From: Rugalucina vietnamica
Taxonomy: Eukaryota > Mollusca > Bivalvia > Lucinida > Lucinidae
Assembly: GCA_964017185.1 (NCBI GenBank)
Contig: OZ024877.1
Location: 320,501-384,500 of the forward strand
Direction: 5' to 3'
DNA: 64,000 nucleotides
In this document: in pieces, positions 14,052-52,696 of the stretch
Numbering within the stretch: position 1 is the stretch's first letter
Layout: every line of letters begins with the position of its first letter
Program-made: the position numbers and the translations under genes
The notes under the pieces: model-generated
Seen by the model: the letters and a program-made list of their open reading frames with translations, nothing else
Told to the model about the DNA's origin: nothing
Databases searched by the model: none

Positions 14052-14097
14052 ATCATGTAAAGCCAAATACACCAGTACTTGATGGCAATACAGTCAT
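14052..14097 (-). promoter_or_regulatory. SECIS element of deiodinase gene A
   Basis: Minus strand reads ATGA-C-TGTATTGCC, a 19-base loop containing AA, then GGCTTTACA-TGAT. ATGA and TGAT form the kink-turn quartet bound by SBP2; seven of nine stem positions pair. It starts about 385 bases after the stop codon and recruits the selenocysteine machinery to the in-frame UGA. The same hairpin follows the other two deiodinase genes. Confidence 0.85.
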
Positions 14098-14480
14098 TAA
14101 ATTCACATACTCAGAGTGTTTCTACAGCGTACATGAATTTAAGATAAAATTGTCTGACAGCACAAAGATGATGTATATAGGTATATAGTTTTTCTATATT
14201 TATGTAAAATACATGTATAACTAAACAAAAGGTATGAACAGACTATATTATTAGTCAAAACTATATTTTTAAGAATGAGGTAAACATTGAACAGATATTT
14301 GATTGTAAAGCCTTTAGTTTCAGACGTTTTATCCTAGACAGTGACCATTTATCACTAGCGCTGAACGATGAAGAAAACGTAAGCAATAGAAAATAGTAGA
14401 CTCAAACCTGTTTGTTTATTAAACACGAAAGTTTCTAGTTCTACTGTTGTAAAACGAAAATTAAAACTATACAATAAGTC

Positions 14481-15221
14481 TTAGTGTCTTTTTACATAAT
14501 TTTCTAGCCATTCTCTAACACGTTGTGGGCTGTAGTCTCTAAAAGGTCCCAAACCTTTCAACTTAACTACGCCATTTTCTATGATATAAAGCGCTTCTGG
14601 ATGTGCGGCGTACTGGTAGATACCTTCATCTTCCATCGTATCCAGAAGAATGGGACAAGGGACACCGTAATCTTCCAACATCTTAGCGGCAGCAATACGG
14701 TCATCGATGGTTTTATGTTGATGTATGTCATATTTTCCGCCAGGTTGATGCCAACCATCTAGAGGATGAGCCTCCTTAATATAGATAGTAACAAAATTAG
14801 CATGTTTATCGAAATCGGTCACAACTTTGTTAAATTGGTCCAACGACGACATGAACGGCCCTCAGGAACAACTACCAAAGTTGACGACAAGAGGACGTCC
14901 AACTTTTTCAAAGTCTAGCAGCTTCTTTCTCACGTTTTGAAGAGTAAGAATATTTATATTTGGAGCTTTTTGTCCAACTGATATTGCGCAGGACAAATGT
15001 AGATACTGGGTCCATACCATTTGCAGAAACGACTTGTATGATACGCCAACTCGGAATCCTTTCTTAAGAAATTTCCTGGGCACCTTCTGAGGAATAATAT
15101 TCTCTGGGAGCGCTTGCAATATGATTAGAACGACATCAAATACCGCGCACATACATGTTCCAAAAACAGCCCAGACCAGAGCTCGAACGGCACAGAGAGA
15201 TTTTCGTAGTATTCCCACCAT
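14481..15221 (-). CDS. Iodothyronine deiodinase-like selenoprotein (gene A)
   Basis: Predicted 246-residue thioredoxin-fold membrane selenoenzyme that would remove iodine from iodothyronines. The frame is read through a TGA at 14862-14864 as selenocysteine 120, in NFGSCS-U-GPFM (family usual NFGSCT-U-PPFM). Residues 10-37 form a membrane anchor. Later family blocks are present: YIKEAHPLDGW, HKTIDDRIAAA, CPILLDTMEDEG, AAHPEALYIIENGVVKLKGLGP and VREWLENYV. Coding is in one exon, as in vertebrate DIO3. The start MVGIL aligns with MAGIL in genes B and C. A likely 3' splice site (TTCTTTTACAG) 56 bases upstream suggests an intron in the 5' UTR. Substrate is inferred from family; some invertebrate deiodinases act differently. 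Confidence 0.9.
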
Positions 15222-15624
15222 GGTTCACCAGGGAGGTGCGTTCCTTTCTTTAAACACATACAGTACTAGGCTTTGTTCTGTAAAAGAATGGAGTGTATCA
15301 TTAGAACAAATATAAATATCAAAGACAATGACATGCAGACACCAATTCCATTTACATGAAACATTCCAAATGACAAATTAAGGATCATCGGGACAAACAA
15401 AATAGCGAAACAAGGGGAAATGAAAATCAAGTATTACAATGCACAACACGTTACAGAAAAGAAAACGCAGATCAATATCGACTTCTCTCTCTTGAATTAT
15501 TCCTTGGCAAACAGTTCAACCCTTTTGTAATTGTCTCTAGCTACAAATCCGTTTAAGGTATCATCGGAATCTGACCAGTACGGACTGGGATTTTAATAAA
15601 AATACAAATGCAATGTGAGTGACG

Positions 15625-16410
15625 GAAATAAAAATAAAACTGAGATCCTTTAATAGCAGTGAACATAATGAGAAAGAGGTTGGGCCATACCGCGGTTTCG
15701 GCTACTTAAGCCTCTTCAGTGACCCTATAGATTTTTGCAACATGGAGCCACAGAGAATTATTGTAATTTTGTATCTTTCAACAGGGTAGTCGATACTAAG
15801 AATAGTATAATCCAAATCGGGTCAAATATATTTAACGTTGGTTAGAAAATGAATCTAAACCTACCCACCATGTATTTACTTTATGAAGGAAATCCTGCCA
15901 TATCCTCTCTGAGTTTCGTGTGTTTACTCAAATATACCCTTTATATACATGAATTATCAAAGGAACACCAATGTTCTCAAAACTGACCAGCGTATTGATA
16001 AAGGCAAGGCTATATCGGTTAAATTACTTAAAGGTCACTGTGTGATATAAACATAACTTGACCACTATCTAAGGACATAACATTAGTTATGACCTTTGTG
16101 TATGTTCTATGAAATCTGACAAGGAAGTGATGCCTATCATCTAAACATTAATTAACATCAGATTTGGGTAGTGCCAGAGTAAAGTTATTATCGGTTTAGA
16201 TTCATTTTTAGCCGACGTTCAAATGTATTTGGCCCTGACTGCCATTTTGAGAGATACAAAATTACAGTTATTCTCTTTGGCTCCATGCTGCCAAATATTT
16301 GTGGTCACTGAAGAGGCTTGAGTAGCTGAAACCGCAGTATGGCCCGTCCCTTTTCTCGTGAATTGGTTCGCTGCTCTTAAAGGATCTGTTTTATTTTTAT
16401 TCGAGTTACT
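15625..16410. mobile_element. Foldback element, ATCCTTTAAGAGCAGTG family
   Basis: The two arms (about 15628-15865 and 16190-16405) are inverted copies of about 220 bp. Each carries GATCCTTTAA, GGGCCATACCGCGGTTTCGG, CTCTTCAGTGACC and, inward, TAAACCGATAA-like sequence. Related arms occur at 33850, 37503-38100 and 59955-60505, and a scrap at 19306. No coding capacity. Confidence 0.65.
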
Positions 16411-16559
16411 ATACTGTTATTTGTTTATTCTTGGGCCAGTAATGTCCGCCAAATATAGCAGAAGTTTAGAGTTACATACACTGAAGTGGTAAAGGTTGAT
16501 ACTACTCTTTGGCTTGTAAGCTAAATCTCAGCAATTATGAGCCTTACTTATCATGGACT

Positions 16560-16955
16560 GCATTGATTGTCCTTGATGCTTCATTGACTATTTAGAGATT
16601 CACCACGAGAACCGAACATCTAACTAAATGTTGCGAACCACTGCAGAAGATGGATTTAAGCCCACAGTAATTTAACAATATATTATCCAAGGCGCTACTT
16701 CTGCTGTGGTTCTATTTATTTTGTGTTTTGGAGTCGAATTTTCGTGCTGTTTGAACTTTATGTAAGTTCTCATAGTTTTAGTTAAGTTCGGGTAATTGAG
16801 TGGCCGCCTATTGGGAATTAGCTGCTCACTCGGCTTACGACGTGTTTTCTAAGTATTAGTACCTAATTGTCAACTAAGTTTTTCCCACCTCGGTTTTTTA
16901 TGTGTGATTTTCTTTCTGATTGCGTCTTTTCCTGATCATTGCCTTTTTAATTAAA
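16560..16955 (+). mobile_element. PLE 3' fragment
   Basis: It matches the 3' untranslated part of the Penelope-like family seen whole at 48831-50278: GAGATTCACCACGAG, AACCACTGCAGAAG, GTGGCCGCCTATTGGGAA, and the terminal CTGATCATTGCC. It is 5'-truncated and diverged. Confidence 0.65.
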
Positions 16956-16972
16956 ACAGCAGTCGCGCATTA

Positions 16973-17522
16973 GCGTATCAGTGAAACGCGCGCCGGGCGT
17001 GTTGAAAAAATTGCAAAAATTCCATATACCCCAGACGCACGTCGGAGACATGTCCAAAACGCGTTACGAGTACGTCGGATACGCTTGGTGTACGTCCGGC
17101 GTCGCTTAAACCCGTCGCACGTTTCGTGCGCGTTTGGGATCAAAAGGTTTTTAAACATGCTTAAAAATACGTTGAATGCGCTTCGAACGCGTTTGGTGCA
17201 CGTTTTAGGCACGTCAGTGTACGCTACACTGCGCGTTCCGATTTTATGAGATATTGCTTCAGTAGCGTGGCCAAGCGTGTGTGAGACGCGTGTTGAACGC
17301 TTGCTGCGCGTCTATGGCGTGTGCTTAGCGTGTCTGGGACGTAACACAACAGTACTCTAAAACTTTAAGATTTTTATACGTCCGGCACACGCCTCGGTCC
17401 CGCGCTAATGTGTGACTGCTAAAGCGAGTTAAAGGTACAAATTATTTTTTATACATCCAAAATCTTCAGCGTGTTGAGATTTTTCGTACGTGATTTCGGC
17501 GCGCGTATGTGTTATACGCTAA
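16973..17522. mobile_element. CpG-rich TIR element, copy 1
   Basis: Ends are inverted: AGCGTATCAGTGAAACGCGC with CGCCGGGCGTGTTG at the left, and a CGCGCGTATGTGTTATACGCT-like end at the right. The interior is full of CGT/ACG words and the recurring ACGCTTGGTGTACG. A shorter relative lies at 39194-39468. No coding capacity; the long minus-strand frame here is compositional. Confidence 0.6.
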
Positions 17523-17524
17523 TG

Positions 17525-18190
17525 TGATGGAATAGCCTCTCTTGGCAGAATACGTTGGTGCAACGCATTAGCGGCATCTGGAGTGCTAGTAATATGCAAA
17601 TTAGAAACTCGAAACTTTGTGAATCGAGTAAGTGTTGACTTAAAAGCGCAGTAAATCACCCTTGGTGGATGAGCATGATTTTCCACCGATGGGGTTTAGC
17701 TGTAGCTTGGCTCGGTTGTTCGTTACATTTGGCGGCAGCGGCGGGATAATGACAACTGCCTTACCCATGTAGTTCCGGCGAGTCTTCTCGGTGGGGGAAG
17801 TAATGTGACGGGATAGCCTCCCTTGTAATATGCAAATTTAGAACTCGAAACTTTGTGAAGCGAGTAAGTGTAGAGTATATAGCGCAGTAAACCACCCTTG
17901 GTGGGTGAGCATGCTTTTTCACCGACGGGGTTTCTGTGGCTCGGCTCGGCTGTTCGTTACGTTTGGTGGCAGCGGTGGGATAATGACAACTGCCAGACCA
18001 GATTTGCCTTACCCATGTGTTCCCAGGCATCTGGGGTGCTAGTAATATGCAAATTAGAAACTCGAAACTTTTTGAATCGAGTAAGTGTTAACTACATGTA
18101 TATAGCGCAGTAAACCACCCTTGGTGGATGAGTATGCTTTTCCACCGACGGTCTTTAGCTGTGGCTTGGCTCGGTTGTTCGTTACACTAA
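17525..18190. repeat. Three tandem units of about 230 bp
   Basis: Units begin TAATATGCAAATT near 17590, 17825 and 18047 and share GAAACTCGAAACTTT, CCACCCTTGGTGG, TTTTCCACCGA and CTCGG(T/C)TGTTCGTTAC. Spacing is 235 then 222 bp. The first two units also carry GGCAGCGG(C/T)GGGATAATGACAA. They follow directly on the CpG-rich element. Confidence 0.75.
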
Positions 18191-19443
18191 TGTGTGAATG
18201 CTGTTTAAGCTAAATTACGGCTTTGGAACTGTCAATGTTTATCCTTTTGTATTTACGCATCTGTCCGCGTTAACCAGTCGTAACCTTAATGAACGAAAAA
18301 TATATAACACTTCAATCAATGACACAGTTTGAACAGCAATGTCAGTCCCTATTGCAGTGTGAGTATCTAGTGTTTGTTCACGTACGCAATAACATTGCAA
18401 ATAAAAAGATGACTTAAAATGAGAACATTGGAGGGGTGTCCGAAAACTGCGTAGATGGCATGAACTATTTTTATTGGCAACAAATAGAAAAGATGGAAAA
18501 GAAGTAACTTTCGAAAGAGGTATTGAATGTCGAATGGTGAGGTTGAATGAAATGATTCAGAGTTTGTTAGTCTTGTTTTCGTTATCTGTTATTCCCACTG
18601 CAAAACCAAATGACATTTATATTCAACATGGTCAATAAACTTTTCCTAAATTAACAAATACGTATACTCGAACGTCAACAATATAGGTATCGTAGTGTTC
18701 ATACATTATAAAATGGTCATTTATGTTTCCATACCGACACAAATATCATAATTACAACACGTTTTGACCATTATTTATATGACATACAAATATAGAAATC
18801 AAATAACCAACTTAGCACGTCATACTGTGCTGTCATAGCAACAGTAATTGCAGATATTTGTAGCTAAGATCAGTGTATATGTAATGTAATAAACACTCCA
18901 TATACAATCTGTAGAATTTATCTAAATATAAATTCAACAATAAAGACATAAGTAGTATCTGAAAATGCTCCGGACAGCCCTCGTGCTTGCAATCAAATGT
19001 AATAAATGGAATGTCTTACAGTGGATTACCTTGAACGTTGATATATATTTTAACTCGGGGTATTCTATTCAGAACATCAAAGAAAAAGAAATGATTCTTC
19101 GGACTAGGTAAGTTTAGTAAGTTATGTATTTATTTACAATAAAATCATTATCAATTTTACAGATCTTATAACATGTTTTATAAGTAAATACTGACACCAT
19201 CAATGAAGCGATGTTTCCATGTTATGTAAATTGTTTTAGGTGTAACATTTGGGACAATCTGAACCCGAAATGACATAAGCTTTATATACAGCAGTACAAA
19301 TAAAAATTAAGACTGAGATCCTTTAAAAGAAGTAAACACATTGACGAGAAAGGGTGCTAAGAAACATATTGCCATGCCACTTTAAATTACGTAAAAGCTC
19401 TTCAACTACTTTGATCATGTTGGTTTCAACATTAATTTTTCAG
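18191..19443. other. 5' flank of deiodinase gene B
   Basis: No gene seen. A scrap of the ATCCTTTAAGAG repeat lies at 19306-19355. The segment ends at the proposed splice acceptor (TTAATTTTTCAG) in the 5' UTR of gene B. Confidence 0.4.
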
Positions 19444-19500
19444 ACTACAGACAGTTATCATATGAACAAAGAAAAAGTTAGCAAGGTCGTCAGATCAACC

Positions 19501-20244
19501 ATGGCGGGGATTCTAACGACAATTCGTTGCGGCGTACAAGCCCTGCTATTTGCTTTTGCCATGACATGTGGCCTTGCTATAGGCAATATCCTTCTGAAGC
19601 TGGTGCGGATGTTGCCAGAACAGTTGATTCCAAAACAATTGCCGGAGAAATTTCGGAAGCAGAATTTTGATTTTGGTGTATCATACAAATCTTTTCTTAT
19701 GGTACTCCGGTTTAAGTACCTCCATTTTTCGTGCCCGACGGCAGTGGGACGTAAGGCTCCAAATATAAACATTTTAACACTTGATAACGTGAAAAAGAAG
19801 CTACTAGACTTTGAGAAAGCAGGGCGTCCTCTAGTTGTCAACTTCGGGAGTTGTTCCTGAGGTCCGTTCATGTCGTCGTTGGACCAATTAAACAAAATTG
19901 TGACCGACTTCGACAAATACGCTGACTTTGTTACTATCTACATTAAGGAGGCACATCCACTAGACGGGTGGTATATACCAGGTGGGACAGACGTTGACAT
20001 TCATCATCATAAGACGATAGATGACCGCATCGCAGCTGCTAAACTTTTGAAGGGTTGGGGAGTAACCTGTCCTATACTTGTAGATACGATGGAAGATGAA
20101 GGTATCTACCAGTACGCCGCACATCCAGAAGCGCTTTATATAATAGAAAATGGCGTAGTTAAGTTGAAAGGGTTAGGACCATTTAGTGACTATAATCCTG
20201 AACACGTCAGAGAATGGTTGGAACACTACGTAAAGAGACGCTAG
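19501..20244 (+). CDS. Iodothyronine deiodinase-like selenoprotein (gene B)
   Basis: Predicted 247-residue selenoenzyme, paralog of genes A and C. TGA at 19858-19860 is read as selenocysteine 120 in NFGSCS-U-GPFM. Family blocks are intact: anchor at residues 10-38, YIKEAHPLDGW, HKTIDDRIAAA, CPILVDTMEDEG and AAHPEALYIIENGVV. The start MAGIL aligns with the paralogs; an in-frame ATG at 19462 would add 13 residues (MNKEKVSKVVRST). A splice acceptor (TTTTTCAG) lies 57 bases upstream, as in A and C. Its SECIS is unusually far away, about 1.8 kb downstream, because a 484-bp direct duplication lies between. Read without selenocysteine, the protein would stop after 119 residues and lack its active site. 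Confidence 0.9.
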
Positions 20245-22047: not shown

Positions 22048-22093
22048 ATGACTGTTTTGCCTACAAGTACTGCTGTATTTGGCTTTACATGAT
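22048..22093 (+). promoter_or_regulatory. SECIS element of deiodinase gene B
   Basis: Sequence is ATGA-C-TGTTTTGCC, a 19-base loop containing AA, then GGCTTTACA-TGAT. The loop (TACAAGTACTGCTGTATTT) closely matches that of gene A. Spacing of quartet, stem and AA is the same as in the other copies. It lies 1,804 bases after the stop codon. Confidence 0.82.
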
Positions 22094-27282: not shown

Positions 27283-27328
27283 ATCGTGTATAACCTTATA
27301 CATTAGTATTTTAAAGCAATACAGTCAT
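27283..27328 (-). promoter_or_regulatory. SECIS of a deiodinase relic
   Basis: Minus strand reads ATGA-C-TGTATTGCT, a loop with AAAA, then GGTTATACA-CGAT. Eight of nine stem positions pair, counting wobbles. It is closest to the gene C SECIS, and flanking sequence (TATTTCGCATGTGT) also matches the gene C 3' UTR. It lies about 600 bases downstream of the GPCR stop on the same strand. Confidence 0.7.
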
Positions 27329-27679: not shown

Positions 27680-27900
27680 TTGGCGCCGTTTAACATAATT
27701 TTGCAGCCAATTTTAAATTGTCCGGTTAGTAGTAAAGGTACGAATCTGCTCTTAACCTATCCGCGCAGCGGAAACGGCACCATTATTCTTCTGCAACAAC
27801 TCTACTTCTAAGGTTGAAGCTGTTATAAAGAGTTTATTTATCAGCATTACAAAAATTAATGGATTTCTTCGTTAACTGGGTACAAAGGCAGTTTTGGTTC
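27680..27900 (-). pseudogene. Deiodinase C-terminal relic
   Basis: Minus-strand translation gives NWLQNYVKRR, matching EWLQNYVIRR of gene C and ENYVKRH of gene A. Further upstream only weak similarity remains (NNGAVSAARIG against ENGVVKLKGLG), with stops between. The order of this tail and the SECIS at 27283 is the same as in the intact genes. The amino-terminal half and the Sec codon are gone. The relic ends about where the GPCR coding region begins. Confidence 0.65.
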
Positions 27901-27922: not shown

Positions 27923-29248
27923 CTATGCACGCCTACAGTTAAGAAATTCATATATCTGTATTACTGTTTTCTTTATAACCAGTCGAAACGGTTTTATTCG
28001 CCCAATGTTTATAATAGGATTGCAGGCACTATTAAGCATTGCCATAGACACAAATAAGAATCTCACCCCACGAGGCAAGGGGCCAGTGATCATTTGGATT
28101 ATAACCATAAAATCAAGCGGTGTCATGAAAACGTTTAAAGACATAAGCAAGATTCCAAACGTAACCATAACGCGGTTTTGTTTTTTCCATCCAACACTAC
28201 CGTTGCTCGTTTGACTACTTCCAACTTTCTTCCTAAATGTACCTCTTGCACACGTATTTGCAGCTGACGCCTGACAATTTCGATCTGTGTAATTATCTTT
28301 TATGCGCTTTGATTCACAAGCCGTTGAGGGACCGGCCTTTGGCTCGTGCATTGCGGATTGGACCATTATTTTGGTGGTACTGCCGCTAGTTTCACGTCCT
28401 GTGGTATCCATAGAAACTAGCTTAGATGTGTTTGCAGCTCCTAGAGTATTAGATTTCCACAAATGATTTTCTTGAGCACGACAGCATGCTAGCTCATCAC
28501 CATTTGTCGCATGTTTTGGTGCCACGTTTATGACACCTACCGACCTCAATCTCTTTCTGACATAAATGAATAAATACACATATATGATGTTAGTACATAA
28601 CTGAGGCGGAACCAACGGTGGAATAGTTAACAATGCAAAGGCAACAGGCTCATTGCCTTCAAACAGGTAAATAGTTGAACAGTGTTTAACAGTTTCACCA
28701 AATCGAGCAAAGGATAAAAAGTGAATAACATAAAATAACAAACAGAGCCCCCACACTGCCAATATTTGCATCAAATGTTTTATAAACGAGGAATCATTTA
28801 TGTTTACTTTCCTCATTATAGACCGCAGACGATTTACACAAATAAGCAGCGTGTGACACAGAGTCGCAGACTGCGCAAAAAAGTACATGTAAATCATAAA
28901 GGCACATGTTTCGTATTTTGTATTTTGAAATACAGTAGGAAAAACTATCCCTGGAATGGCCGTTATTCCAACAAGCAGGTCCGTTAAACTTAAACTAAGA
29001 AGCTGAACATTCACGTTGTTTTTCAATGCATTTCGGCTAGTAATCAGACATATAAGTACAAAACTATTTGCTACTATAATCCATGTGGATATGGATATCA
29101 TAATGATAAACAGCCATAATGGGAAGCTAAAAAATTTAGCGTTCGAGATATTACTGTTTACATCATTTAAGATTGATACATTCTCATTTATGATTTCCTC
29201 ATTATCTAAGTATGTGGTATTCTCATATGATGTTGGTGATATGTCCAT
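27923..29248 (-). CDS. Rhodopsin-like (class A) G protein-coupled receptor
   Basis: Intact single-exon frame of 441 residues with seven membrane segments. The first 40 residues carry N-glycosylation sites (NTT, NVS, NIS). Class A landmarks: N61 in TM1 (VANSFVLI), D90 in TM2 (LSLTDLL), C115 and C190 as the likely extracellular disulfide, W166 in TM4, and N410-P411 in TM7. Two switches are altered: VNR (138-140) replaces DRY at the end of TM3, and NPIIN replaces NPxxY. TM6 lacks the usual CWxP. The third inner loop is long (about 230-355) and basic. The ligand cannot be named. The gene is followed on the same strand by a deiodinase relic and SECIS. Confidence 0.88.
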   Translation of the reverse strand: MDISPTSYENTTYLDNEEIINENVSILNDVNSNISNAKFFSFPLWLFIIMISISTWIIVANSFVLICLITSRNALKNNVNVQLLSLSLTDLLVGITAIPGIVFPTVFQNTKYETCAFMIYMYFFAQSATLCHTLLICVNRLRSIMRKVNINDSSFIKHLMQILAVWGLCLLFYVIHFLSFARFGETVKHCSTIYLFEGNEPVAFALLTIPPLVPPQLCTNIIYVYLFIYVRKRLRSVGVINVAPKHATNGDELACCRAQENHLWKSNTLGAANTSKLVSMDTTGRETSGSTTKIMVQSAMHEPKAGPSTACESKRIKDNYTDRNCQASAANTCARGTFRKKVGSSQTSNGSVGWKKQNRVMVTFGILLMSLNVFMTPLDFMVIIQMITGPLPRGVRFLFVSMAMLNSACNPIINIGRIKPFRLVIKKTVIQIYEFLNCRRA

Positions 29249-36477: not shown

Positions 36478-36526
36478 CTCCGGCCCCAACCAACTAAAAT
36501 GAATAGCTTTAAGTCGGGGCCATCAT
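36478..36526 (-). promoter_or_regulatory. SECIS-like hairpin at the end of the PLE ORF
   Basis: Minus strand reads ATGA-T-GGCCCCGAC, a 22-base loop starting TTAAAG, then GTTGGGGCC-GGAG. The nine-base stem pairs fully with one or two wobbles, and flanking GCGTCAGAC / GTCTGTTGC forms an outer helix. Quartet-to-AA spacing equals that of the deiodinase SECIS elements. It overlaps the last codons and stop of the ORF. Confidence 0.65.
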
Positions 36527-37333
36527 AGAGTCTGACGCCCGACCCACCGGCGTGCAATTAAAGAAGGCAGCATAGTTATCAACCATGATTGGGTTAAAAA
36601 CTAAGCATGCAGACTGTCGCATAACATTCAAGTTATAACCTATACGTCTGTAACGTGATATGATTTTTCCGAACTGAAGAGAAAAATCATTTATTCCTTT
36701 AAGTTTCTTTAATTTGTAAACCAAGTCACCATAAAATTCAGGTTCCGAAAGGCCCTCACTTAAAAGTGTCTTTAACCCAACATTATATTTGGAAATCAAT
36801 TCATAGTGTCTACGATAAAATTTAGAAAAGGTTTTTCGAAGTTTATGATACCGATAGCCCTGTTGGAGAAGTTTTGCCGTTAAACATTTATTTCGAGCGT
36901 TGAAGTCTGTAACATGATTGCAGACTCTAGCAAACCTAATAAGTTGCGAAATGTATACACCATAAGAAGCACGACGAGGAACGTCACCATCCAAAAAAGG
37001 AAAATTTACTATATCAAAATCAAAGTCATCGCGCTTATCATAAATTTTAGAAGAAACAAATCCATTTGCAACAGAAAGATGTAGATCTAAAAAGGGGGCT
37101 TCGGTATCTGAGATATTAGCTTTGTTCAACTGAAGTTCAGGTGGATAAATTTGATTGACCATACCTTCAAAATAAGGGTTGTCAATGTTCAAAAGGTCAT
37201 CGAGGTACCTAGATGTGGAATTAAAAGCCTCGATAACATCAGCTTGATTATCATGGTTAAGAGAATCCATGAAATCTCTTTCGTAGCAGTATAAAAATAA
37301 ATCAGCTACGAGAGGTGCGCAATTTGTACCCAT
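36509..37333 (-). CDS. Penelope-like (Naiad-type) reverse transcriptase, C-terminal half
   Basis: An open frame of 274 residues carries the later RT blocks: MGTNCAPLVADLFLY, the catalytic YLDD (about residue 43) and LDLHLSVANGFVSSKIYDKR, then thumb-region sequence (ASYGVYISQLIRFARVCNH, GYRYHKLRKTFSKFYRRHYE, YGDLVYKLKKL). It ends RASDSMMAPT-stop. MGTNC with the YISQLIRFAR region is typical of Penelope-like elements. The amino half, with the presumed GIY-YIG domain and CxC linker, is absent. Reported Naiads of clams encode selenoproteins, and the SECIS-like hairpin here fits. No in-frame TGA is seen in this part, so any Sec residue would be in the missing portion. Confidence 0.78.
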   Translation of the reverse strand: MGTNCAPLVADLFLYCYERDFMDSLNHDNQADVIEAFNSTSRYLDDLLNIDNPYFEGMVNQIYPPELQLNKANISDTEAPFLDLHLSVANGFVSSKIYDKRDDFDFDIVNFPFLDGDVPRRASYGVYISQLIRFARVCNHVTDFNARNKCLTAKLLQQGYRYHKLRKTFSKFYRRHYELISKYNVGLKTLLSEGLSEPEFYGDLVYKLKKLKGINDFSLQFGKIISRYRRIGYNLNVMRQSACLVFNPIMVDNYAAFFNCTPVGRASDSMMAPT

Positions 37334-40809: not shown

Positions 40810-43179
40810 ATGACAAAAATGGAAAACTGTTCTGAAACTACGTTAGACTGTACCAACAGCATAAATGAACAAATCAAAATCAAACAAGAGTCATGTGATT
40901 CAATTTTGCTTGATACTTCATTATCAGAATTTACTCTATCATCATACAAGTCTGAATCAGAGATGTCAAGCTGTGATGTTACAAATACTGATCTTTTTGA
41001 GGGTACAATCTATAAAACTATTTCATCTGAGTCCTCAATAAGCATCAATTTTGTATCCAGTGTGTTTTTTGAAAGCTTCAAAAATAAGATACACGCCGAT
41101 TACATGAATAGTATTGATATTGACAATACAAATTTCATCTCTAAATGTACAACACACATAAAGGGCGCAAAATGCGACATTAAACTGGATACCCACTTCA
41201 AAACCGTGGAACTCAGCGGCCTTGGAAGTAAGTTTTGGAGAAATGAGCGCTTCCCACAGATAACTAGATCCTTGTTTAAGCGCATAATGTATGATTTGGA
41301 TAGCCAGATGGAAGGGTTCAGTCAGTGCAAGCCCGGAACGGGGGATGATACAGGGATTCACGATCAACTGGATACGTCTTCGGAAAAACAAACAACTGAC
41401 GTCAACGTCGCGCCAAAGAGCGACGTCGCAGAGAGCGGGAGCCCTGTACCGAGCCGCGACGTAACGTTAAATTCTGCCGCGGGGGCGGATGAACAGTTGA
41501 ATTGTGTGGTGAATAATATCAATTCCGTAGAAAAGGGAGCGTCCTCCACATCATTACAGACTGATTATAACCAGGCTGCGATCGACGAGTCAAATTCAGA
41601 GAAGAGAGAAACACCCGAATTCACCGCAGAGAACATCACGAGTGTATATTTGCAAAGCATAAACGCCGCCAACGGGCAAGGTCAAGGTCAAGGTCAAGGA
41701 ATAAACCCAGGACAGGGCGCATATACCGAAAAACGGGACATGAAAGATAAAAACCGGGAGATTGAGAGGAATAATTTCGATTCAAATGGACTGATGATAT
41801 GCGGTTTTGAAAACAGAGAGTTTCCCGTTTTAACTTCTACCCCTATAACAGCCAACAATGGAACAGCAAGCCAGACCATGCGTGTTATTCTTGGCAAGAT
41901 AGATCAGCTTGAGAGCGGTATTAAGACAATAAAAAGGGATATATTGCAGCAAATGGAATCAAAACTTGACACACTGAAGGCCTCTGTGGTATGTTTAATT
42001 GAACAAATGGGCTCAAATAAGAACTATGCTGACGCTGCTAGAGCTTCCAGTCACAATGTTGGATCTCTGTCCAGTCTTCACAACAATACAGATGAAGGTT
42101 ATGGTGACCTGTCGACCGCTAATATTCGTAGCTCGTCGTCGGAGACACAACTGAAAACACCGTTCGTGCCGAACATAAGTGAGAGAAGTCCTGCTCGTGT
42201 CGCACTGGAGAAAAATAAAGGGACTGTAAATGGCCCAAACCCCCCACCTGCCGTTGAGAATAATCGTCAAACACAACCAATGGCCGTTCCGTCTTTATTC
42301 CATGGTGACGCTGGATCTAGGAGAATAACTACGCCACAACCGGTGCCGGTACATATTACCAACCGAAATCGAACACAAAATAACAACAGAAATACTGCTG
42401 CCCTGAACCAAAGCACTACAACATCATCGAAGCCACTTCAAACACTCGTTGTAGGAGACTCAGTCTTAAAGGGGATTAATTCCAAGGGGCTAGAAAGTGG
42501 AGTTAGGATCTGCTCAAAAAATGGCGCCAAGATCAAGGATATATGGGACGAAATATCAGTATACGATTTTAAATCATTTCAGAACGTAATCATATGTGTA
42601 GGCGGGAATGATAGTTCGAGCGGAACTGAAACCAGTATGTTTGAGGAAAAGTATGACGAGCTTGTTGGATACATCAAGGCTGCAAACAACAACTGTGCTG
42701 TTTACCTTTGCAAAGTTGTTCCCAGGGGAGATGTTGATGTTTCGGGAATAAATGCAAGCATTGAGCGAGTAGTCAATCATTGGCGGATGCATAATATCAA
42801 ACTAGTGGAATCTACAAATGAGTTGTTCTTTGGAGCAGATGGGTTACCATGTGGACGATATTTTTCGACGGACGGCATCCACGTGTCACATTCTGGGACT
42901 AAACGGTTTATTGACGCCATCAATCGACATGTGCTGATTGTACGCGATTTTCAGTCATGCGTATACCGTACCGGATCAGAACAACAACAACAGCAGGGTA
43001 GGAACAACAAGAGGAGACCAAGTATGGGACGGAACTATGGTAGATATAAGAATACGACGCCGAATGGTGGAATGAGCAGAAACACCCAGTTTACAGGACA
43101 TTCGTCAAAGCAAAACCGCACATGCTATGCGTGCTCTATGCCAGGCCATATATATTCAGAATGTTGGTTTACTCAATAG
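40810..43179 (+). CDS. LINE ORF1: coiled coil, SGNH esterase-like domain, zinc knuckle
   Basis: A 789-residue frame. The first 280 residues are Ser/Thr/Asn-rich with no recognised fold, followed by a short Gly-Gln run (GQGQGQGQG, about 289-297). A coiled coil follows (about 360-402, GKIDQLESGIKTIKRDI). Residues 543-710 look like an SGNH hydrolase: block I VVGDSVLKG (about 546), ICVGGND (about 595) and the terminal STDGIHVSHSG with Asp and His (about 687). A CCHC knuckle CYACSMPGHIYSEC lies at 771-784. Esterase-bearing ORF1 proteins are known from CR1-type LINEs and presumably act in the RNP. The likely start is the ATG at 40810, with another in frame at 40819. Confidence 0.85.
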   Translation: MTKMENCSETTLDCTNSINEQIKIKQESCDSILLDTSLSEFTLSSYKSESEMSSCDVTNTDLFEGTIYKTISSESSISINFVSSVFFESFKNKIHADYMNSIDIDNTNFISKCTTHIKGAKCDIKLDTHFKTVELSGLGSKFWRNERFPQITRSLFKRIMYDLDSQMEGFSQCKPGTGDDTGIHDQLDTSSEKQTTDVNVAPKSDVAESGSPVPSRDVTLNSAAGADEQLNCVVNNINSVEKGASSTSLQTDYNQAAIDESNSEKRETPEFTAENITSVYLQSINAANGQGQGQGQGINPGQGAYTEKRDMKDKNREIERNNFDSNGLMICGFENREFPVLTSTPITANNGTASQTMRVILGKIDQLESGIKTIKRDILQQMESKLDTLKASVVCLIEQMGSNKNYADAARASSHNVGSLSSLHNNTDEGYGDLSTANIRSSSSETQLKTPFVPNISERSPARVALEKNKGTVNGPNPPPAVENNRQTQPMAVPSLFHGDAGSRRITTPQPVPVHITNRNRTQNNNRNTAALNQSTTTSSKPLQTLVVGDSVLKGINSKGLESGVRICSKNGAKIKDIWDEISVYDFKSFQNVIICVGGNDSSSGTETSMFEEKYDELVGYIKAANNNCAVYLCKVVPRGDVDVSGINASIERVVNHWRMHNIKLVESTNELFFGADGLPCGRYFSTDGIHVSHSGTKRFIDAINRHVLIVRDFQSCVYRTGSEQQQQQGRNNKRRPSMGRNYGRYKNTTPNGGMSRNTQFTGHSSKQNRTCYACSMPGHIYSECWFTQ

Positions 43180-43212
43180 GGGTTAGGCACAATTGCCAAA
43201 CAAGATACTGTT

Positions 43213-46200
43213 GTGACATTGTCAAATCAGTTCAGTGTTTTTGAAAAACTGTGTTTTATTTGTAATCGTTTTCAATGTTCCTGTCAAACTTCATCTTTAC
43301 CTTTAGAAAGTGAATCTATTGATATATCATCACTAACTTTTGAGGAGTGTACAAACTTTGAGATGAATGAAATATCTGAGCATGTTATTTCAATAAATAC
43401 CAGTTCACTATTGACACCTGAATCACAATCAGAAAATGAACTTTTGTCATATACATGTAGGAACAATGGTAATAGCATTTGTGATTCAAATATTGAAGGT
43501 TCAAATGGAGAAAAAATGAGTAAATATTCGGAAATATTAGTAACTGTAAATAAGGAAAATAAAGACCATCGTGGTATTTCTATGAATCAGCTCATTCCAA
43601 AAACTTGCGACTCTCGTCTAAGTAAAAGCTGTTCTGCATCAGCTAATTTGAATTTAAACAATACTAAAGATCCACTTTCGCTTGATCTAAAGAAAAAAGG
43701 TTACAACATTGGCCACTTGAATATACAAGGTTTATGTGGAGATAGTTTAAATAAATTTTCAGAAATTTCAATATTGCTTACAAGCATAGAAAATGAAAAA
43801 TTACACATTTTTGGAATGAGCGAAACAAAGTTAAAAAAACACAAATTGACAGGAACGTTTAAAGTTAAAGGATTTCAAACACCGTTTAGAAAAGACAATG
43901 TTTCGAATGGCGGCGGAGGTATAATTGTATATGTTAGAGATTATATTAATGCCAAGCGGCGTGAAGATTTGGAAACTAATGATATTTCTTGCTTATGGTT
44001 GGAAATTTCGCCAGAAAAAGGCAAATCTTTTCTAGTAGGCAATATGTATAGGCCGCCCGATTCAAAAATTGAGTTCAATGATAGGTTTGAAGATTTTATA
44101 GACACTGTTTTGAATGAAGGAAAAGATTTTATTCTTTTGGGGGACATAAACAAAAATTTGCTTAATGATGAAATTGAAAGGGAATGGGGTAATTTTATAA
44201 CGTCTTTAGGTCTAACTCAGCTTGTAAGTGAACCAACCAGAGTAACAAATGAGTCTAGTACTCTTATTGACCACATTTATACTAACAACGAAGATAATAT
44301 TCAACATGTTAATGTTGAGAAATTGTGTCTCAGTGACCATTACGGAATTTTTTGCAATCGATCGTCTCACGTTTCTTCTGATAGAAACAATGAGCATCAA
44401 TATATTACGTATAGATCATTTAAAAATTTTGAAGAAAACCGCTTTCTTAATGATTTGTCCATGGTCCCTTGGGAAATAATTGAATGTTTTGATACTATCG
44501 ACGACATGGTTTCAGTTTGGACATCGTTATTTACGGAAGTACTTAACAAACACGCACCGATTAAAAATCACAGAGTCAAAAATAAATTTCAACCAGAATG
44601 GCTGACTCCGGAAATATTAGATTTAATAAAAGAACGTGATAAATGTAAAATAAACGGTAATACTACTGACTATAAAGTTTTACGAAACAGGGTTTCTGAG
44701 TTGATAAAACTCGCGAAAAAAGAAACATATAAATCGAAAATTGAGGAAGGAAAATCTGATCCCCGGAATATTTGGAAACTATTCAATGAATTTGGTATGA
44801 GTAAGAAAGGAAGTGAAGGCAATTCAAATATGAGCTTGAAATTAGACGATAAATTTATCACAAATGAGTCTGACTTGACGAAAGTTTTTAATGACTATTT
44901 TGTTAATATAGCGTCGGCATTAAAAGAACCAAATATTGATTCTGATTTTGAAAAACTTAACAACTTTGTTTCCACTAAGGTTCCTATGGATACTGAATTC
45001 AAAATTCCGTTGACAAATCATACATTCATTAAATCGTTCTTGTCAAATTTAAATGTAAACAAATCAACAGGACTTGACAACATAGGTCCCAAAATCCTTA
45101 AATTGTCTGCAAATGTCATTACACCTAGCATTTTATTCATAGTTAATAAAAGCATATCATTCAATAAGTTCCCCAACTTATGGAAAGAGGCTAAGGTTAA
45201 GCCACTGTTCAAATCTGGGAGTAAAGATGATATTAACAATTACCGACCTATTTCAATATTACCAACAATTTCTAAACTAATTGAAAAATGGGTAGAAAAA
45301 CAGTTTTCGCAGTTCTTAAATGATTTTCAATTGTTACATAAATCCCAAAGTGGATTTCGTCCCAAACACTCCACTGAATCTGCCCTTATTCTTATGATAG
45401 ACTCGTGGCTTAAAGCTATAAACGAAGGAAAAATAGTTGGTTGTGTTTTAGTTGATTTACGTAAGGCTTTTGATTTAGTCGACCATGAGATTCTGTTAAG
45501 GAAATTGAAATGCTACAAGTGCACTGACTCATGTTTGTCTTGGTTTAAATCATATTTGTGTAACCGAACACAACGTGTATCTTTGAATAACTGCTTATCA
45601 GATGCTTCTGATGTTATTCACGGTGTTCCACAGGGATCTATATTGGGTCCTCTTTTGTTTCTGATTTTTATTAATGATTTGCCTTTGTATTTAAAAGATA
45701 ATGCATGCACTGTTGATTTATATGCTGATGACACTACTATATATTACAGTAACTGTGATAAATTAGAGCTAGAAAGAAATTTGCAAAAGTCGCTTGACTG
45801 TCTTCAAATGTGGTGCCGTGAAAACGGTATGATATTGAACATGGATAAAACCAAAGTCATGCTCATTACAAGTAGGCAAAAGCGAACCACTTTGAGTAAT
45901 GCAGATTTGACTCTTCAGTATAATGATATAGATTTAAGTATAACGACTTGTGACAAAATTTTAGGCATTCATGTCGATAATAATTTGTCATGGAATAATC
46001 ACTTTAATTTTCTGTCTAAAAAGTTGTCATCATATATGTGGCTTTTGAGCAAAATTAGAATTTATCTATCTACAGAACACAGAGTACTTTTCTATAACGC
46101 TTATATTAAACCTCACATTGATTATTGCAGTTTAATTTGGAGCAATTCGTCAAACGCAAATACAAACAAAATAACTAAATTGCAAAGAAGAGCATGTAAA

Positions 46201-46563
46201 CTGATTTTGGGCCACGAATATAACGGTTTGTTTGAGGCATTCGAAAGATTAAAGATCCTGTCTTTTGATCAAAGTGTTTTCCTCAGTAAAGCGAAAATAA
46301 TGTATAAAATCAAGAACTGTCTAGCGCCTAGTTATTTAAATGAATTATTTTTAATGCGAGATGCAAATCTTGACAACACATCTTCAAATTTAAGGTCAGC
46401 GGCCAATAAAAACTTCATTGTACCACAAGCGAAATGCAACCTTTTTAAAGGTAGTTTATCTTATTCAGGCGTTATTGTATGGAACAGCATCCCTGTCAGT
46501 ATAAAAGATTCTTCGTCCTTGCCGATGTTCATAAACAAATGCACAGAATGGATTTTACATTAA
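43213..46563 (+). CDS. LINE ORF2: AP endonuclease and reverse transcriptase
   Basis: The frame is open from before 43213 (a GTG) to 46563, up to 1,116 residues; the first ATG is at 43363 (MNEISEH). The exonuclease-endonuclease domain (about 165-390) shows HLNIQGL, MSETKL, VGNMYRPP, LLGDINKNL, LIDHIYTN and SDHYGIF. The RT (about 600-900) shows NNYRPISILPTISKLIEK, SGFRPKHSTESAL, LVDLRKAFDLVDH, GVPQGSILGPLLFLIFINDL and the catalytic YADD (about 836). No RNase H is seen. ORF1 ends 34 bases before, with no ATG near the junction, so translation may use re-initiation or a non-AUG start. Confidence 0.88.
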   Translation: MTLSNQFSVFEKLCFICNRFQCSCQTSSLPLESESIDISSLTFEECTNFEMNEISEHVISINTSSLLTPESQSENELLSYTCRNNGNSICDSNIEGSNGEKMSKYSEILVTVNKENKDHRGISMNQLIPKTCDSRLSKSCSASANLNLNNTKDPLSLDLKKKGYNIGHLNIQGLCGDSLNKFSEISILLTSIENEKLHIFGMSETKLKKHKLTGTFKVKGFQTPFRKDNVSNGGGGIIVYVRDYINAKRREDLETNDISCLWLEISPEKGKSFLVGNMYRPPDSKIEFNDRFEDFIDTVLNEGKDFILLGDINKNLLNDEIEREWGNFITSLGLTQLVSEPTRVTNESSTLIDHIYTNNEDNIQHVNVEKLCLSDHYGIFCNRSSHVSSDRNNEHQYITYRSFKNFEENRFLNDLSMVPWEIIECFDTIDDMVSVWTSLFTEVLNKHAPIKNHRVKNKFQPEWLTPEILDLIKERDKCKINGNTTDYKVLRNRVSELIKLAKKETYKSKIEEGKSDPRNIWKLFNEFGMSKKGSEGNSNMSLKLDDKFITNESDLTKVFNDYFVNIASALKEPNIDSDFEKLNNFVSTKVPMDTEFKIPLTNHTFIKSFLSNLNVNKSTGLDNIGPKILKLSANVITPSILFIVNKSISFNKFPNLWKEAKVKPLFKSGSKDDINNYRPISILPTISKLIEKWVEKQFSQFLNDFQLLHKSQSGFRPKHSTESALILMIDSWLKAINEGKIVGCVLVDLRKAFDLVDHEILLRKLKCYKCTDSCLSWFKSYLCNRTQRVSLNNCLSDASDVIHGVPQGSILGPLLFLIFINDLPLYLKDNACTVDLYADDTTIYYSNCDKLELERNLQKSLDCLQMWCRENGMILNMDKTKVMLITSRQKRTTLSNADLTLQYNDIDLSITTCDKILGIHVDNNLSWNNHFNFLSKKLSSYMWLLSKIRIYLSTEHRVLFYNAYIKPHIDYCSLIWSNSSNANTNKITKLQRRACKLILGHEYNGLFEAFERLKILSFDQSVFLSKAKIMYKIKNCLAPSYLNELFLMRDANLDNTSSNLRSAANKNFIVPQAKCNLFKGSLSYSGVIVWNSIPVSIKDSSSLPMFINKCTEWILH

Positions 46564-47735: not shown

Positions 47736-47924
47736 CACACAGATATTAAGAAGAACAAATATGAGGATAATAACATTTGGAACTACATGTACTTAAACCA
47801 TTGAATAAGTACTTGAGTTAAACATGCAAATCAACAGCAAAAACATATTACTTAAGTGTAATTCCTATTGTCTGAAAACGTTTTTCGCAGATATTTTGCA
47901 CCTGTTAAAATGTAGATGAAAAAA

Positions 47925-48830: not shown

Positions 48831-48833
48831 CCG

Positions 48834-49574
48834 ATGGGTACAAATTGCGCACCTCTCGTAGCTGATTTATTTTTATACTGCTATGAAAGAGATTTCATGG
48901 ATTCTCTTAACCATGATAATCAATCTGATGTTATCGAGGCTTTTAATTCCACTTCTAGGTACCTCGATGACCTTTTGAACATTGACAACCCTTATTTTGA
49001 AGGTATGGTCAATCAAATTTATCCATCTGAACTACAGTTGAACAAAGCCAATATCTCGGATACCGAAGCCCACTTTTTAGATCTACATCTTTCTGTTGCA
49101 AATGGATTTGTTTCTTCTAAAATTCATGATAAGCGCGATGATTTTGATTTTGATATAGTAAATTTTCCGTTTTTGGATGGTGACGTTCCTCGTCGTGCTT
49201 CTTATGGTGTATACATTTCGCAACTTATTAGGTTTGCTAGAGTCTGCAATCATGTTACAGACTTCAACGCTCGAAATAAATCTTTAACGGCCAAACTTCT
49301 CCAACAGGGCTATCGGTATCATAAACTTCGAAAAACCTTTTCTAAATTTTATCGTAGACACTATGAATTGATTTCCAAATATAATGTTGGGTTAAAGACG
49401 CTTTTAAGTGAGGGTCTTTCGGAACCAGAATTTTATGGTGAATTGGTTTACAAATTTAAGAAACTTATAGGAAGTAATGATTTTTCTTTTCAGTTTAGAA
49501 AAATCATAACACGTTACAGACGTATAGGTTATAACTTGGAATGTTATGCGATAGTCTGCATGCTTAGTTTTTAA
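48834..49574 (+). CDS. Penelope-like (Naiad-type) reverse transcriptase, C-terminal half
   Basis: Begins MGTNCAPLVADLFLYCYER and keeps YLDD, LDLHLSVANGFVSSKIHD, ASYGVYISQLIRFARVCNH and the YRYHKLRKTFSKFYRR block. It is nearly identical over about 240 residues to the frame at 36509-37333. Its last residues differ from the family consensus, so it is probably a non-functional copy. No endonuclease domain follows. The amino-terminal part of the protein is absent. Confidence 0.75.
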   Translation: MGTNCAPLVADLFLYCYERDFMDSLNHDNQSDVIEAFNSTSRYLDDLLNIDNPYFEGMVNQIYPSELQLNKANISDTEAHFLDLHLSVANGFVSSKIHDKRDDFDFDIVNFPFLDGDVPRRASYGVYISQLIRFARVCNHVTDFNARNKSLTAKLLQQGYRYHKLRKTFSKFYRRHYELISKYNVGLKTLLSEGLSEPEFYGELVYKFKKLIGSNDFSFQFRKIITRYRRIGYNLECYAIVCMLSF

Positions 49575-49641
49575 CCCAATCACGGTTGATAACTATGCTG
49601 CCTTCTTTAATTGCACGCCGGTGGGTCGGGCGTCAGACTCT

Positions 49642-49690
49642 ATGATGGCCCCGACTTAAAGCTATTCATTTTAGTTGGTTGGGGCCGGAG
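49642..49690 (+). promoter_or_regulatory. SECIS-like hairpin in the plus-strand PLE copy
   Basis: ATGA-T-GGCCCCGAC, loop beginning TTAAAG, then GTTGGGGCC-GGAG: identical in structure to 36478-36526, in the same place at the end of the ORF. Confidence 0.65.
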
Positions 49691-50309
49691 CTTCTTGTCT
49701 GTTGCTTGGCCCACCGGGGTCCAACTGATGTTTTTCTTTAGCTCCGGAGTTAGTAAGTTATTTGGCGCCCAGGGATCTCCATCGTCGGGCAGCTTACTGA
49801 ATCTGTGAGTCCTGGTTTTTGATTCATCAGGATGTTTATCATGATTTATTTGTTTGTTCTTGATGATTCATTTACTAGTTAGAGATTCACCACGAGGACC
49901 GAAGAACTAACTAAATGTTATGAACCACTGCAGAAGCTGAGGGTGAGGTTACGGCCGTGTAAAATCGATTTAAACCCGCCAGTAACTTTGTGTTACTGAT
50001 CGTTCCAAGTCGATACTTCTGTGGTGGTTCTTTTTGTTTTATGTCTTGGTGTTTAAAATATTTTTGTGCTGTTGGCGCCTTATGTATGTTTGCATATTTT
50101 TAGTTAAGTTAAGGTAACTGAGTGGCCACCTATTGGGAAAATAGCTGCTCATTCGGCTTACGAAATGTTTTCATGGTATAAGTGCCTGATTGTTAGTTTG
50201 GTTTTCTTGGTTTTTGGAGTGGGAGTCTTTTTCTGATTGCGCCTTTTCCTGATCTTTGCCTACTTGTACTTTTTGTATTGGTACATAACCTCATTAGTTT
50301 TACGTGACT

Positions 50310-51510
50310 TGGTTTAGACTAGTTTTACAGGTACCTAACCTCACCCTCAGCTTCTGCTGTGGTTCACAACACATAGTTGTTCGGCCCTCGTGATAAATCT
50401 CTAACTAGTCAATGAATCATCAAGGACAAACAAATAAATCATGATAAACACCATGATGAATAAAAAACGAGGACCCACATGTTCAGTAAGCTACCCGACG
50501 ATGGAGATCCCTGGGCGTCCCATCACTTACTGAAATCCTGAGCAAAAGAGAAACACCAATTGAACCCTGGTCGGCCAAGCAATAGACAAGAAGCTCCGGC
50601 GCCAACCATTTAAAATGAATAGCTTTAAGTCGAGGCCACAATTAGGCAATAATCAGGAAATGGCGCAGTCAGAAAGAAATTACCACTCCATAAACCGAGG
50701 ATCGTGAAAAAAAAATAGGACACTTAGGTACTCATACCAAGGAAACAGATAGTAAGCCGAGTGAGCAGCTTTTCTCCAATAGGAGGCCACTCAGTTACCC
50801 GAACTGAAGTAAAATAAGGCTCAAACAGCACAAAAATTAGACTCCAAAACAGAAAACAATTACAACAGAAGTATCGCCTTGGAACGATCAGTAATATAAA
50901 ATTACTGGGGGGCTTAAACCGGTTTTAAAGGACCCTAACCTCACTCTCATTTTCTGTAGTGGTTTACAACATTTAGTTAGTTGTTCGGTCCTCGTGGTGA
51001 ATCTCTTACTAATCAATGAATCATCAAGGACAAACGAATAAATCATGATAATCACCCTGATGGATCAAAAACCAGGACTCAACAGATTCAGTAAGCTGCC
51101 TGACGATGGAGATCCCTGGGCACCAAATTATTAACTGAGACCCGGAGCAAAAGAAAAACCAGTTGAATCCCGAGTCTGACGCCCGACTAAACGGCGTGCA
51201 ATTAAAGAAGGCAGCGTAGTTATCAACCATGATTGGGTTTAAAAGTAAGCATGCAGACTGACGCATAACATTTAAGTTATACCCTATACGTCTGTAACGT
51301 GTAATGATTTTTCTGAACTGAAAAGAAAAATCATTCCTTATTATAAGTTTCTTAAATTTATAAACCAAGTCCCCATAAAATTCTTGTTCCGAAAGGCCAT
51401 CACGTAAAAGCGCCTTTAACGCAACGTTAAATTTGGAAATCAATTCATAGTGTCTGTGATAAAATTTAGAAAATGTTTTTCAAAGTTTATGATACCGTTA
51501 GCCCTGCTGA
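50310..51510 (-). mobile_element. PLE copies, minus orientation, 5'-truncated
   Basis: A 3' UTR piece (about 50320-50640) is followed head to tail by a copy from about 50640 that reaches the RT thumb (YGDLVYKFKKL, GYNLNVMRQSACLLLNPIM) before breaking near 51510. Part of the 3' region, including the hairpin, is missing. Confidence 0.72.
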
Positions 51511-51663
51511 AAAAAGTGGTTCACAAGGCAATGTAATATGATTCTTAACATTCATAGAAGAAACTACATTTCATTAAAGATTAAGTACTGAATCAATTCT
51601 TTATTTTAAACAAATTAACTTAAAATTCATACAATCAACAGCGACAGTAAAATGTAATGTAAC

Positions 51664-51710
51664 TTTCGTGTATAGCCAAATACATAAGCATTTTAAGGCA
51701 ATACAGTCAT
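51664..51710 (-). promoter_or_regulatory. SECIS element of deiodinase gene C
   Basis: Minus strand reads ATGA-C-TGTATTGCC, loop TTAAAATGCTTATGTATTT, then GGCTATACA-CGAA; eight of nine stem positions pair. The outer helix is very strong: GTAAAAGTGTAGTG before the quartet pairs with CATTACATTTTAC after it. It starts about 250 bases after the stop codon. Confidence 0.88.
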
Positions 51711-51958
51711 AAACACTACACTTTTACAAAATCAAAATCCTTTCGCATGTGTGAATTTTTAGTTAATTGTTCGCTCGCATTGTACAACAACGATTTTACT
51801 CAAGAAAATAAAAACAAAACAAATGGTTTAGGGTTGAGACATCTTAATTTAATTAATTGACTTAATTATTCTATTTCTATTATCATAGTAGGCATGAATA
51901 CCTGTTAGGCATTAACACATCTGCTTAATTAAATACATATGAGGTCCATTTCGACATT

Positions 51959-52696
51959 TTAACGTCTTATAACATAATTTTGCAGCCATTCTCTAACATG
52001 TTCAGGATTATAATCCCTGCCTGGTCCCAGTTGTTTCAACTGTATCACACCATTTTCTATGATATAAAGTGCTTCTGGTTGAGCTGCGTACTTGTAAACA
52101 CTTGCATTGTCCATTTGATCTACAAGAATAGGACAAGGTACGCCGTAATCTTGCAATTGCTTAGCCGCGGCAATACGGTCTTCGATAGTCTTGTGTTGAT
52201 ATATGTCATAACCTCCTGGCGTATACCAACCATCTAGTGGATGAGCCTCCCTTATATAGATAGTAATAAAGTCAGCATGCTTGTGGAAGTCGGTCACAAC
52301 TTTGTTAAATTGGTCCAACGTCCACATGAACGGTCCTCAGGAGCAGCTACCAAAGTTGACAACCAATGGACGTCCAACTTTCTCAAAGTCTAGCAGCTTC
52401 TTTTTCACATTGTCAAGCGTGAGGATATCTATATTCGGAGCCTTGAGTCCGATCTTTATCGGACATGACTTATGAATATATTGAACCCATACAAGTTGAA
52501 GAAATGTCTTATAGGATACTCCAACCCCAAAGTCTTTCTTAAGCCATCTCTTAGGCATGCTATTGGGAATAAGTTTCTCCGGCAGTACATGTAAAACTTG
52601 AAGAACGATACCAAAGACTGCGAGTCTGCAAGTTCGGTAAGAAGCTATCATCACGGCTTGAATGGCACATCTTAAACTTGTTAGAATGCCCGCCAT
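51959..52696 (-). CDS. Iodothyronine deiodinase-like selenoprotein (gene C)
   Basis: Predicted 245-residue selenoenzyme. TGA at 52337-52339 is selenocysteine 120 in NFGSCS-U-GPFM. Family blocks: anchor around residues 10-38 (AIQAVMIASYRT and following), YIREAHPLDGW, HKTIEDRIAAA, CPILVDQMDNAS (nearest of the three to the vertebrate CPLVVDTMDNAS), AAQPEALYIIENGVI and VREWLQNYVIRR. One coding exon, start MAGIL shared with gene B. A 3' splice site (ATTTCATTTCAG) 51 bases upstream marks a probable 5' UTR intron. It is the paralog most like the relic at 27283-27900 in its 3' UTR. It lies 30 kb from genes A and B, separated mainly by retroelements. Confidence 0.9.

Follow-up and report, generated by a model that had tools for sequence, protein, structure and literature searches.

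Clusters of deiodinase (DI) selenoprotein genes have been described, in the excerpt of PMC3473315 available, from amphioxus (three genes, mixed strands), Trichoplax (six genes, mixed strands) and Lottia, and the DI gene counts given there, taken in column order, are 11 for Trichoplax, 4 for Lottia, 12 for Capitella and 9 for amphioxus. In bivalves, mussel McDx and McDy (258 and 242 amino acids, aa) and oyster CgDx and CgDy are selenocysteine (Sec) deiodinases with a UGA codon and a selenocysteine insertion sequence (SECIS) in the 3' untranslated region (UTR), according to the available portion of PMC8481496; bacterial deiodinase-like selenoproteins are of a kind known since PMC1088965 (cited in excerpt). 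The stretch analysed here, referred to as the window, comprises 64,000 nucleotides (nt) of the genome of the lucinid bivalve Rugalucina vietnamica (1.09 Gb, 47 contigs) at positions 320501-384500 of contig C9. It holds three neighbouring deiodinase-like genes (A, B and C; Table 1), each with an in-frame stop codon that is very probably read as Sec. That these genes are a new case of the clustered Sec deiodinases already reported in invertebrates is well supported.

For the statement taken as a whole, it is judged likely that A, B and C are functional selenoproteins of the deiodinase family, with SECIS-directed Sec at the UGA, and that they act as membrane-anchored reductases, most likely on an iodothyronine. 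The selenoprotein part alone is held with high confidence; Sec insertion at residue 120 is, as judged from the sequences, near certain, and iodothyronine as the main substrate is mildly favoured. Codon 120 would be decoded as Sec by tRNA-Sec in transcripts running through a form-2 SECIS within each 3' UTR, and this element would direct the decoding. The product would be a thioredoxin/peroxiredoxin-fold reductase anchored in the membrane, the selenol of which would take iodine off an iodinated aromatic substrate. The cluster itself probably arose by old local duplication and inversions, with a fourth copy (D) reduced to its 3' end.

As in the amphioxus and Trichoplax clusters described in PMC3473315, several Sec deiodinase genes lie in one region on mixed strands, and other selenoprotein clusters described there also hold incomplete copies, comparable to relic D. 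The same excerpt gives three strong SECIS elements for the Trichoplax cluster and two for one amphioxus gene, whereas the window has one per intact gene; unlike the clusters described there, it also has an orphan SECIS and a C-terminal relic behind a receptor gene. Two deiodinase genes per bivalve species are treated in the available portion of PMC8481496, in contrast to 13 loci in this genome; McDx is described there as lying outside the vertebrate DIO1-3 groups, and the window genes likewise stand apart from DIO2 and DIO3. Among bacterial deiodinase-like genes (L030-L043; Acidobacteria, Phycisphaerales), the 11 of 14 loci read in frame have their TGA at this catalytic site as well. Unlike the window genes, the three bacterial relatives tabulated are without His219 and Cys239 (DIO3 numbering, used throughout for catalytic residues), and the 11 included in the tree described below form a separate group (100/100).

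When TGA is read as U, each of the three translations contains exactly one U, at residue 120 in the motif NFGSCS-U-GPFM. In 3/3 genes the coding sequence is intact on both sides of this codon, in agreement with a preliminary description made from the sequence alone; its expectation that a standard gene caller would split each gene at the UGA was borne out by a plain open reading frame (ORF) scan, which cuts A, B and C in two (Table 1). Pairwise identity among the full-length proteins is 66-71%. All three lie far above the 27-bit cut-off of Pfam T4_deiodinase (PF00837), at 181, 180.8 and 180.6 bits (E 3.1e-53 to 4e-53).

Comparison of B, the one protein so compared, with the solved catalytic cores gave E 3.6e-35 for mouse DIO3 (4tr3) and E 2.9e-30 for mouse DIO2 (9h48). 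A structure model of B (AlphaFold, 14 alignment rows) reached a mean predicted local distance difference test score (pLDDT) of 75.6, three rows having given 43.1, and DIO2 and DIO3 were its top two Foldseek matches (E 7.0e-16 and 8.9e-16). The thioredoxin fold of the deiodinase core is present in the model (loop 155-164 with pLDDT <50), and a helix at 2-37 (block mean pLDDT 57-68) marks a putative N-terminal anchor region. In the structure of DIO2 a proton relay is assigned to residues mapped here to DIO3 Glu200, His202, His219, Ser167, Thr169 and Tyr197 (PMC11592359, in excerpt). A, B and C all retain Ser167, Cys168, Sec170, Pro172, Tyr197, Glu200, His202, Asp205, Trp207, His219 and Cys239. 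The Sec codon occupies the FGS-x-x-U site in 3/3 genes, and relay and Cys239 are retained save for a conservative Thr169 to Ser exchange. The alignment to known deiodinases accordingly puts the window genes in the family, as the earlier description had it; they share with the two mouse enzymes the fold, the Sec site, Cys239 and most of the relay.

Downstream of the TGA, the ratio of nonsynonymous to synonymous substitution (dN/dS) is 0.085 (A-B), 0.151 (A-C) and 0.131 (B-C). Before the TGA the values are 0.277 and 0.245 for the two pairs that include A, and the ratio is undefined in B-C, where dS is saturated; in both comparable pairs it is lower after the TGA than before. By this measure purifying selection acts on both sides of the UGA wherever dN/dS is defined (all values <0.3). 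Among the window copies dS is about 0.9-1.2, or saturated, so that the duplications do not appear to be recent and the copies are, on this estimate, old; the lineage-specific expansion put forward in the preliminary description stays a suggestion.

Form-2 eukaryotic SECIS elements combine an AUGA and GA core, an unpaired AA, a paired helix and an extra mini-stem, and lie downstream of the stop codon. Some of these features are also given in the available portions of PMC8481496 and PMC1088965. The hairpins downstream of A, B and C have all of them, and the shared geometry put forward in the preliminary description stands; its "nine-base stem" does not stand as such, since of the nine helix positions 7 form standard pairs in A, 6 in B and 8 in C, with U-U at the remainder. 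Besides dispersed repeats, blastn found one short stretch common to the 3' flanks, in 3/3 pairs, of 48-57 bases with 79-89% identity, at the hairpins; an additional A-B match of 56 bases lies in the 5' flanks. A degenerate pattern, written from the three hairpins themselves and allowing up to three mismatches, matched these alone in the window, with 0 expected from 100 dinucleotide shuffles.

A gapless alignment was made of six hairpins, namely those of A, B, C, D and of the paralogs on contig C4 and at 13.09 Mb on C9 (C9:13.09 Mb). ATGAC and GA are invariant in it, AA is present in 5/6 (CC in the C9:13.09 Mb hairpin), and 86.9% of the cells of the helix (nine positions) and of the mini-stem (five pairs) hold standard pairs; within the helix, one position is unpaired in all six hairpins and another is paired in only three of them. 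Five pairs are changed on both sides, a number matched by 0/500 shuffles and by none of the slid versions; with six related rows and a structure named by the analyst, this counts as support and not as a probability. A covariance model built solely from the C4 and C9:13.09 Mb hairpins, both outside the window, found A (E 3e-12), B (2.5e-11), C (8.5e-11) and D (7.7e-09) in the window, with the next best match at 0.34. Because the hairpins of B and C9:13.09 Mb share 91% identity over 46 bases, this test shows homology and position and is not a blind find. On eight other stretches the model returned candidates at C8:52.277 (E 0.0029) and C1 (E 0.013) and no others; elsewhere the elements are short and form-1-like, and perhaps too dissimilar to be picked up.

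The hairpins of A, B and C were already known when the SECIS scanner was tuned, and their scores are therefore not independent. With its first settings (3 kb downstream, AA required) it returned candidates at 9/13 deiodinase loci. A version relaxed in length, distance and AA-or-CC was applied to the four loci missed at first and added C1 and C9:13.09 Mb (4.7 kb downstream, CC). The two remaining misses are damaged copies, C16:15.780 with a weak score of 7.2 and C8:52.301 with none; candidates hence lie downstream of 9/9 intact deiodinase loci and 11/13 of all loci. Both intact C8 candidates have, like B, 6 of 9 standard pairs, C8:45.867 scoring lowest (8.0). A mononucleotide-shuffle control of the 13 flanks (ten rounds) gave 0.038 matches per 3 kb, and the antisense control one match among 13 loci, at C. 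Ten dinucleotide shuffles of the window gave 0 to 2 matches each at scores of at least 8.3 (6 altogether), and 1 at 9.2 or above. The real window gave 8 matches at 8.3 or above: A, B, C, D, three copies of a dispersed repeat, and one on the minus strand at 40921-40873.

For tRNA-Sec, two loci score above the Rfam gathering score (79 and 71.2 versus 47 bits), both called tRNA-SeC with anticodon TCA by ARAGORN; the other 22 matches listed fall under it. Together with the flank conservation island, the paralog-derived covariance model, purifying selection, protein family and fold, these genes uphold the earlier claim that each gene has its own SECIS.

Several observations weigh against the interpretation of A, B and C as deiodinases with SECIS-directed Sec. 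The relay residue Thr169 is Ser in all three, and these differ from DIO3 further at Pro171 (Gly), Phe258 (Pro), Arg260 (Ala) and Arg275 (Leu), the five positions being those at which they are unlike both mouse enzymes. With the Rfam SECIS models no match was obtained for the A or B hairpin even at E 10, and the C hairpin reached 24.6 bits with SECIS_1, under the gathering cut-off of 35, which is the threshold of a public model rather than a property of the element; on eight other stretches (L009-L016), too, no SECIS was reported by Rfam with E values allowed up to 10. In folding energy C alone is clearly better than its shuffles (z -3.64; A -0.30, B -1.35, D -0.06), and the top shuffled scanner score (8.45) is slightly above that of B (8.40). 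AATAAA is also present upstream of the hairpin in A, 60 nt past stop, and in B, at 1387 and 1675 nt, the nearest one after SECIS A being 441 nt away, so that shorter, SECIS-less transcripts are possible. SepSecS was not found in the genome by an exon-by-exon search, which cannot settle its presence.

The alternative that survives best holds that the window genes encode selenoproteins of a divergent Sec-dependent reductase clade with another substrate and are not functional iodothyronine deiodinases; it is considered unlikely, while retaining some weight. It draws on a maximum-likelihood tree (midpoint root) of the nine intact paralogs, DIO2, DIO3 and 11 bacterial relatives, from which the damaged loci, the C9:13.09 Mb gene and bacterial L034, L041 and L043 (chosen frame without a readable protein) were left out. 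A, B and C group together (99/97), C4 joins next (98/95), and this clade lies apart from DIO2, DIO3 and the other five paralogs (94/87, under the star threshold). Neither a single clade of all nine paralogs (2.62 log units worse, p 0.315) nor one of the five paralogs outside window and C4 (p 0.407) is rejected, so that early branching of the window clade is a tendency and not a result. The residues cut both ways as well. Absent from the window genes are Pro171, Phe258, Arg260 and Arg275; in the excerpt of PMC11592359, Arg275 and His202 are the proposed substrate clamp of DIO3, and DIO2 and DIO3 share a Pro-Pro motif at the residue after Sec. However, Pro258 is the DIO1 state according to the same source, the residue at 275 varies among the five other intact paralogs tabulated (R, L or I) and is Lys in DIO2, and the relay (save Thr169) and Cys239 are kept. 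With the relay largely kept and positions 171, 258, 260 and 275 changed, the chemistry should work in a substrate pocket that is probably altered.

More doubtful is a reading in which the window genes, C4 and probably C9:13.09 Mb form an ancient animal subfamily that split off before vertebrate DIO1-3 and shifted to a non-thyronine substrate; such a shift would go with Gly or Ser after Sec and with the lack of Arg at 260 and 275, the Sec chemistry being kept. It is very improbable that A, B and C are pseudogenes or split genes in which the TGA is a true stop and the downstream part is decaying: the splitting of each gene by a plain ORF scan would fit, but TGA stands at the same catalytic position in 3/3 window genes and six other intact loci, dN/dS falls after it in the two comparable pairs, and truly broken copies look otherwise, with additional in-frame stops in C8:52.277 and C8:52.301 and a diverged C terminus in C16:15.780. 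UGA readthrough by an ordinary near-cognate tRNA, with a different role for the hairpin, is hardly credible, since the TGA stands where a known family of selenoenzymes has its Sec, a SECIS-like hairpin is conserved downstream and tRNA-Sec is present in the genome.

Table 1. Positions of the deiodinase genes, hairpins and neighbouring features in the window (window coordinates), with the distribution of deiodinase loci over the genome.
Feature	Position	Strand	Details
Deiodinase gene A	14481..15221	-	Single exon, 246 aa, Sec codon TGA = residue 120, stop TAA; ordinary-code ORFs 14862-15221 and 14481-14852
Deiodinase gene B	19501..20244	+	Single exon, 247 aa, Sec codon TGA = residue 120, stop TAG; ordinary-code ORFs 19354-19860 and 19870-20244
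Deiodinase gene C	51959..52696	-	Single exon, 245 aa, Sec codon TGA = residue 120, stop TAA; ordinary-code ORFs 52337-52696 and 51959-52327
SECIS A	14052..14097	-	383 nt past stop; form 2, with AUGA/GA core, mini-stem and unpaired AA
SECIS B	22048..22093	+	1803 nt past stop; AATAAA 87 nt beyond hairpin
SECIS C	51665..51710	-	248 nt past stop; AATAAA 59 nt beyond hairpin
Relic of fourth deiodinase copy (D)	27683..27712	-	Last ten codons, NWLQNYVKRR; blastn to C, tblastn to A, B, C
SECIS of relic copy D	27283..27328	-	Homologous to SECIS C; in 3' flank of seven-transmembrane (7TM) receptor ORF
7TM receptor ORF	27923-29248	-	Intronless, stop TAG; PF00001, E 2.7e-16
Repeat hairpin, copy 1	36478-36526	-	SECIS anatomy; 5' arm inside ORF 36509-37333
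Repeat hairpin, copy 2	49642-49690	+	SECIS anatomy
Repeat hairpin, copy 3	58383-58431	+	SECIS anatomy
Two adjacent long ORFs	40810-46563	+	789 aa and 1116 aa
Deiodinase loci in genome			C9 window 3; C9 13.09 Mb 1; C16 15.77-15.80 Mb 3; C8 52.28-52.36 Mb 3; C8 45.87 Mb 1; C1 1; C4 1

Genome-wide, 14 Pfam deiodinase matches correspond to 13 loci, two matches at C9:13.09 Mb being counted as one gene in two pieces. This gene (L018) resembles the window genes and is split by about 1.4 kb (intron or insertion). Nine loci have an open frame and count as intact (A, B, C, C4, C1, C8:52.358, C8:45.867, C16:15.801 and C16:15.775). The three-gene cluster of the preliminary description is present, with two amendments: 10/13 loci of the genome lie outside the window, and the truncated fourth copy, D, which spans 27712-27283 on the minus strand, had been overlooked. 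D was recognised by blastn against the 3' end of C (82% over 39 bases, E 8e-05) and by the likeness of its 3' flank to that of C (74% over 101 bases, spanning the SECIS). The tblastn matches of its codons are weak on their own, with E 2.5 (C), 2.8 (B) and, over 34 columns, 0.15 (A).

The 7TM receptor ORF, of the rhodopsin type, lies directly upstream of relic D; PF00001 receptors have at least 103 matching stretches in the genome. The body of the deiodinase is gone, and a rearrangement presumably brought the receptor to its place. The receptor itself is no selenoprotein, and its mRNA may include a SECIS that has no UGA to act on.

The dispersed repeat has hairpins with 9 of 9 pairs in two of its window copies and 8 of 9 in one. 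Two copies exceed the Rfam SECIS_1 gathering score, at 39 bits; as additional selenoproteins these two Rfam matches were rejected, since they lie at the end of a reverse-transcriptase-like ORF in a dispersed repeat. The ORF preceding the hairpin was assigned by eye, and a Pfam search with it gave no family match. The 35-base 5' half occurs 12,967 times in the genome at up to two mismatches (reversed control, 0). Among 30 copies with an exact 5' half, the remaining hairpin is conserved no more than the downstream flank; a working role is thus not indicated.

Of the two adjacent long ORFs, that of 1116 aa has endonuclease and reverse transcriptase domains, and that of 789 aa is GDSL lipase-like (31.4 bits, just below the cut-off of 32.9); together they are probably a long non-long-terminal-repeat (non-LTR) retrotransposon. 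The scanner match at 40873-40921 (-) lies inside this transposon, antisense to the 789-aa ORF (score 9.2, 8 of 9 pairs). No deiodinase match was found beside it, and it is probably due to chance.

For genome-wide SECIS scans it is a practical warning that the repeat hairpin passes the Rfam cut-off and likely real elements fail it. Routine annotation would halve each of the genes, and a predicted proteome could lose nine intact Sec deiodinases. The deiodinases of this genome vary in their substrate site and are a natural resource for studying the substrates of invertebrate deiodinases.

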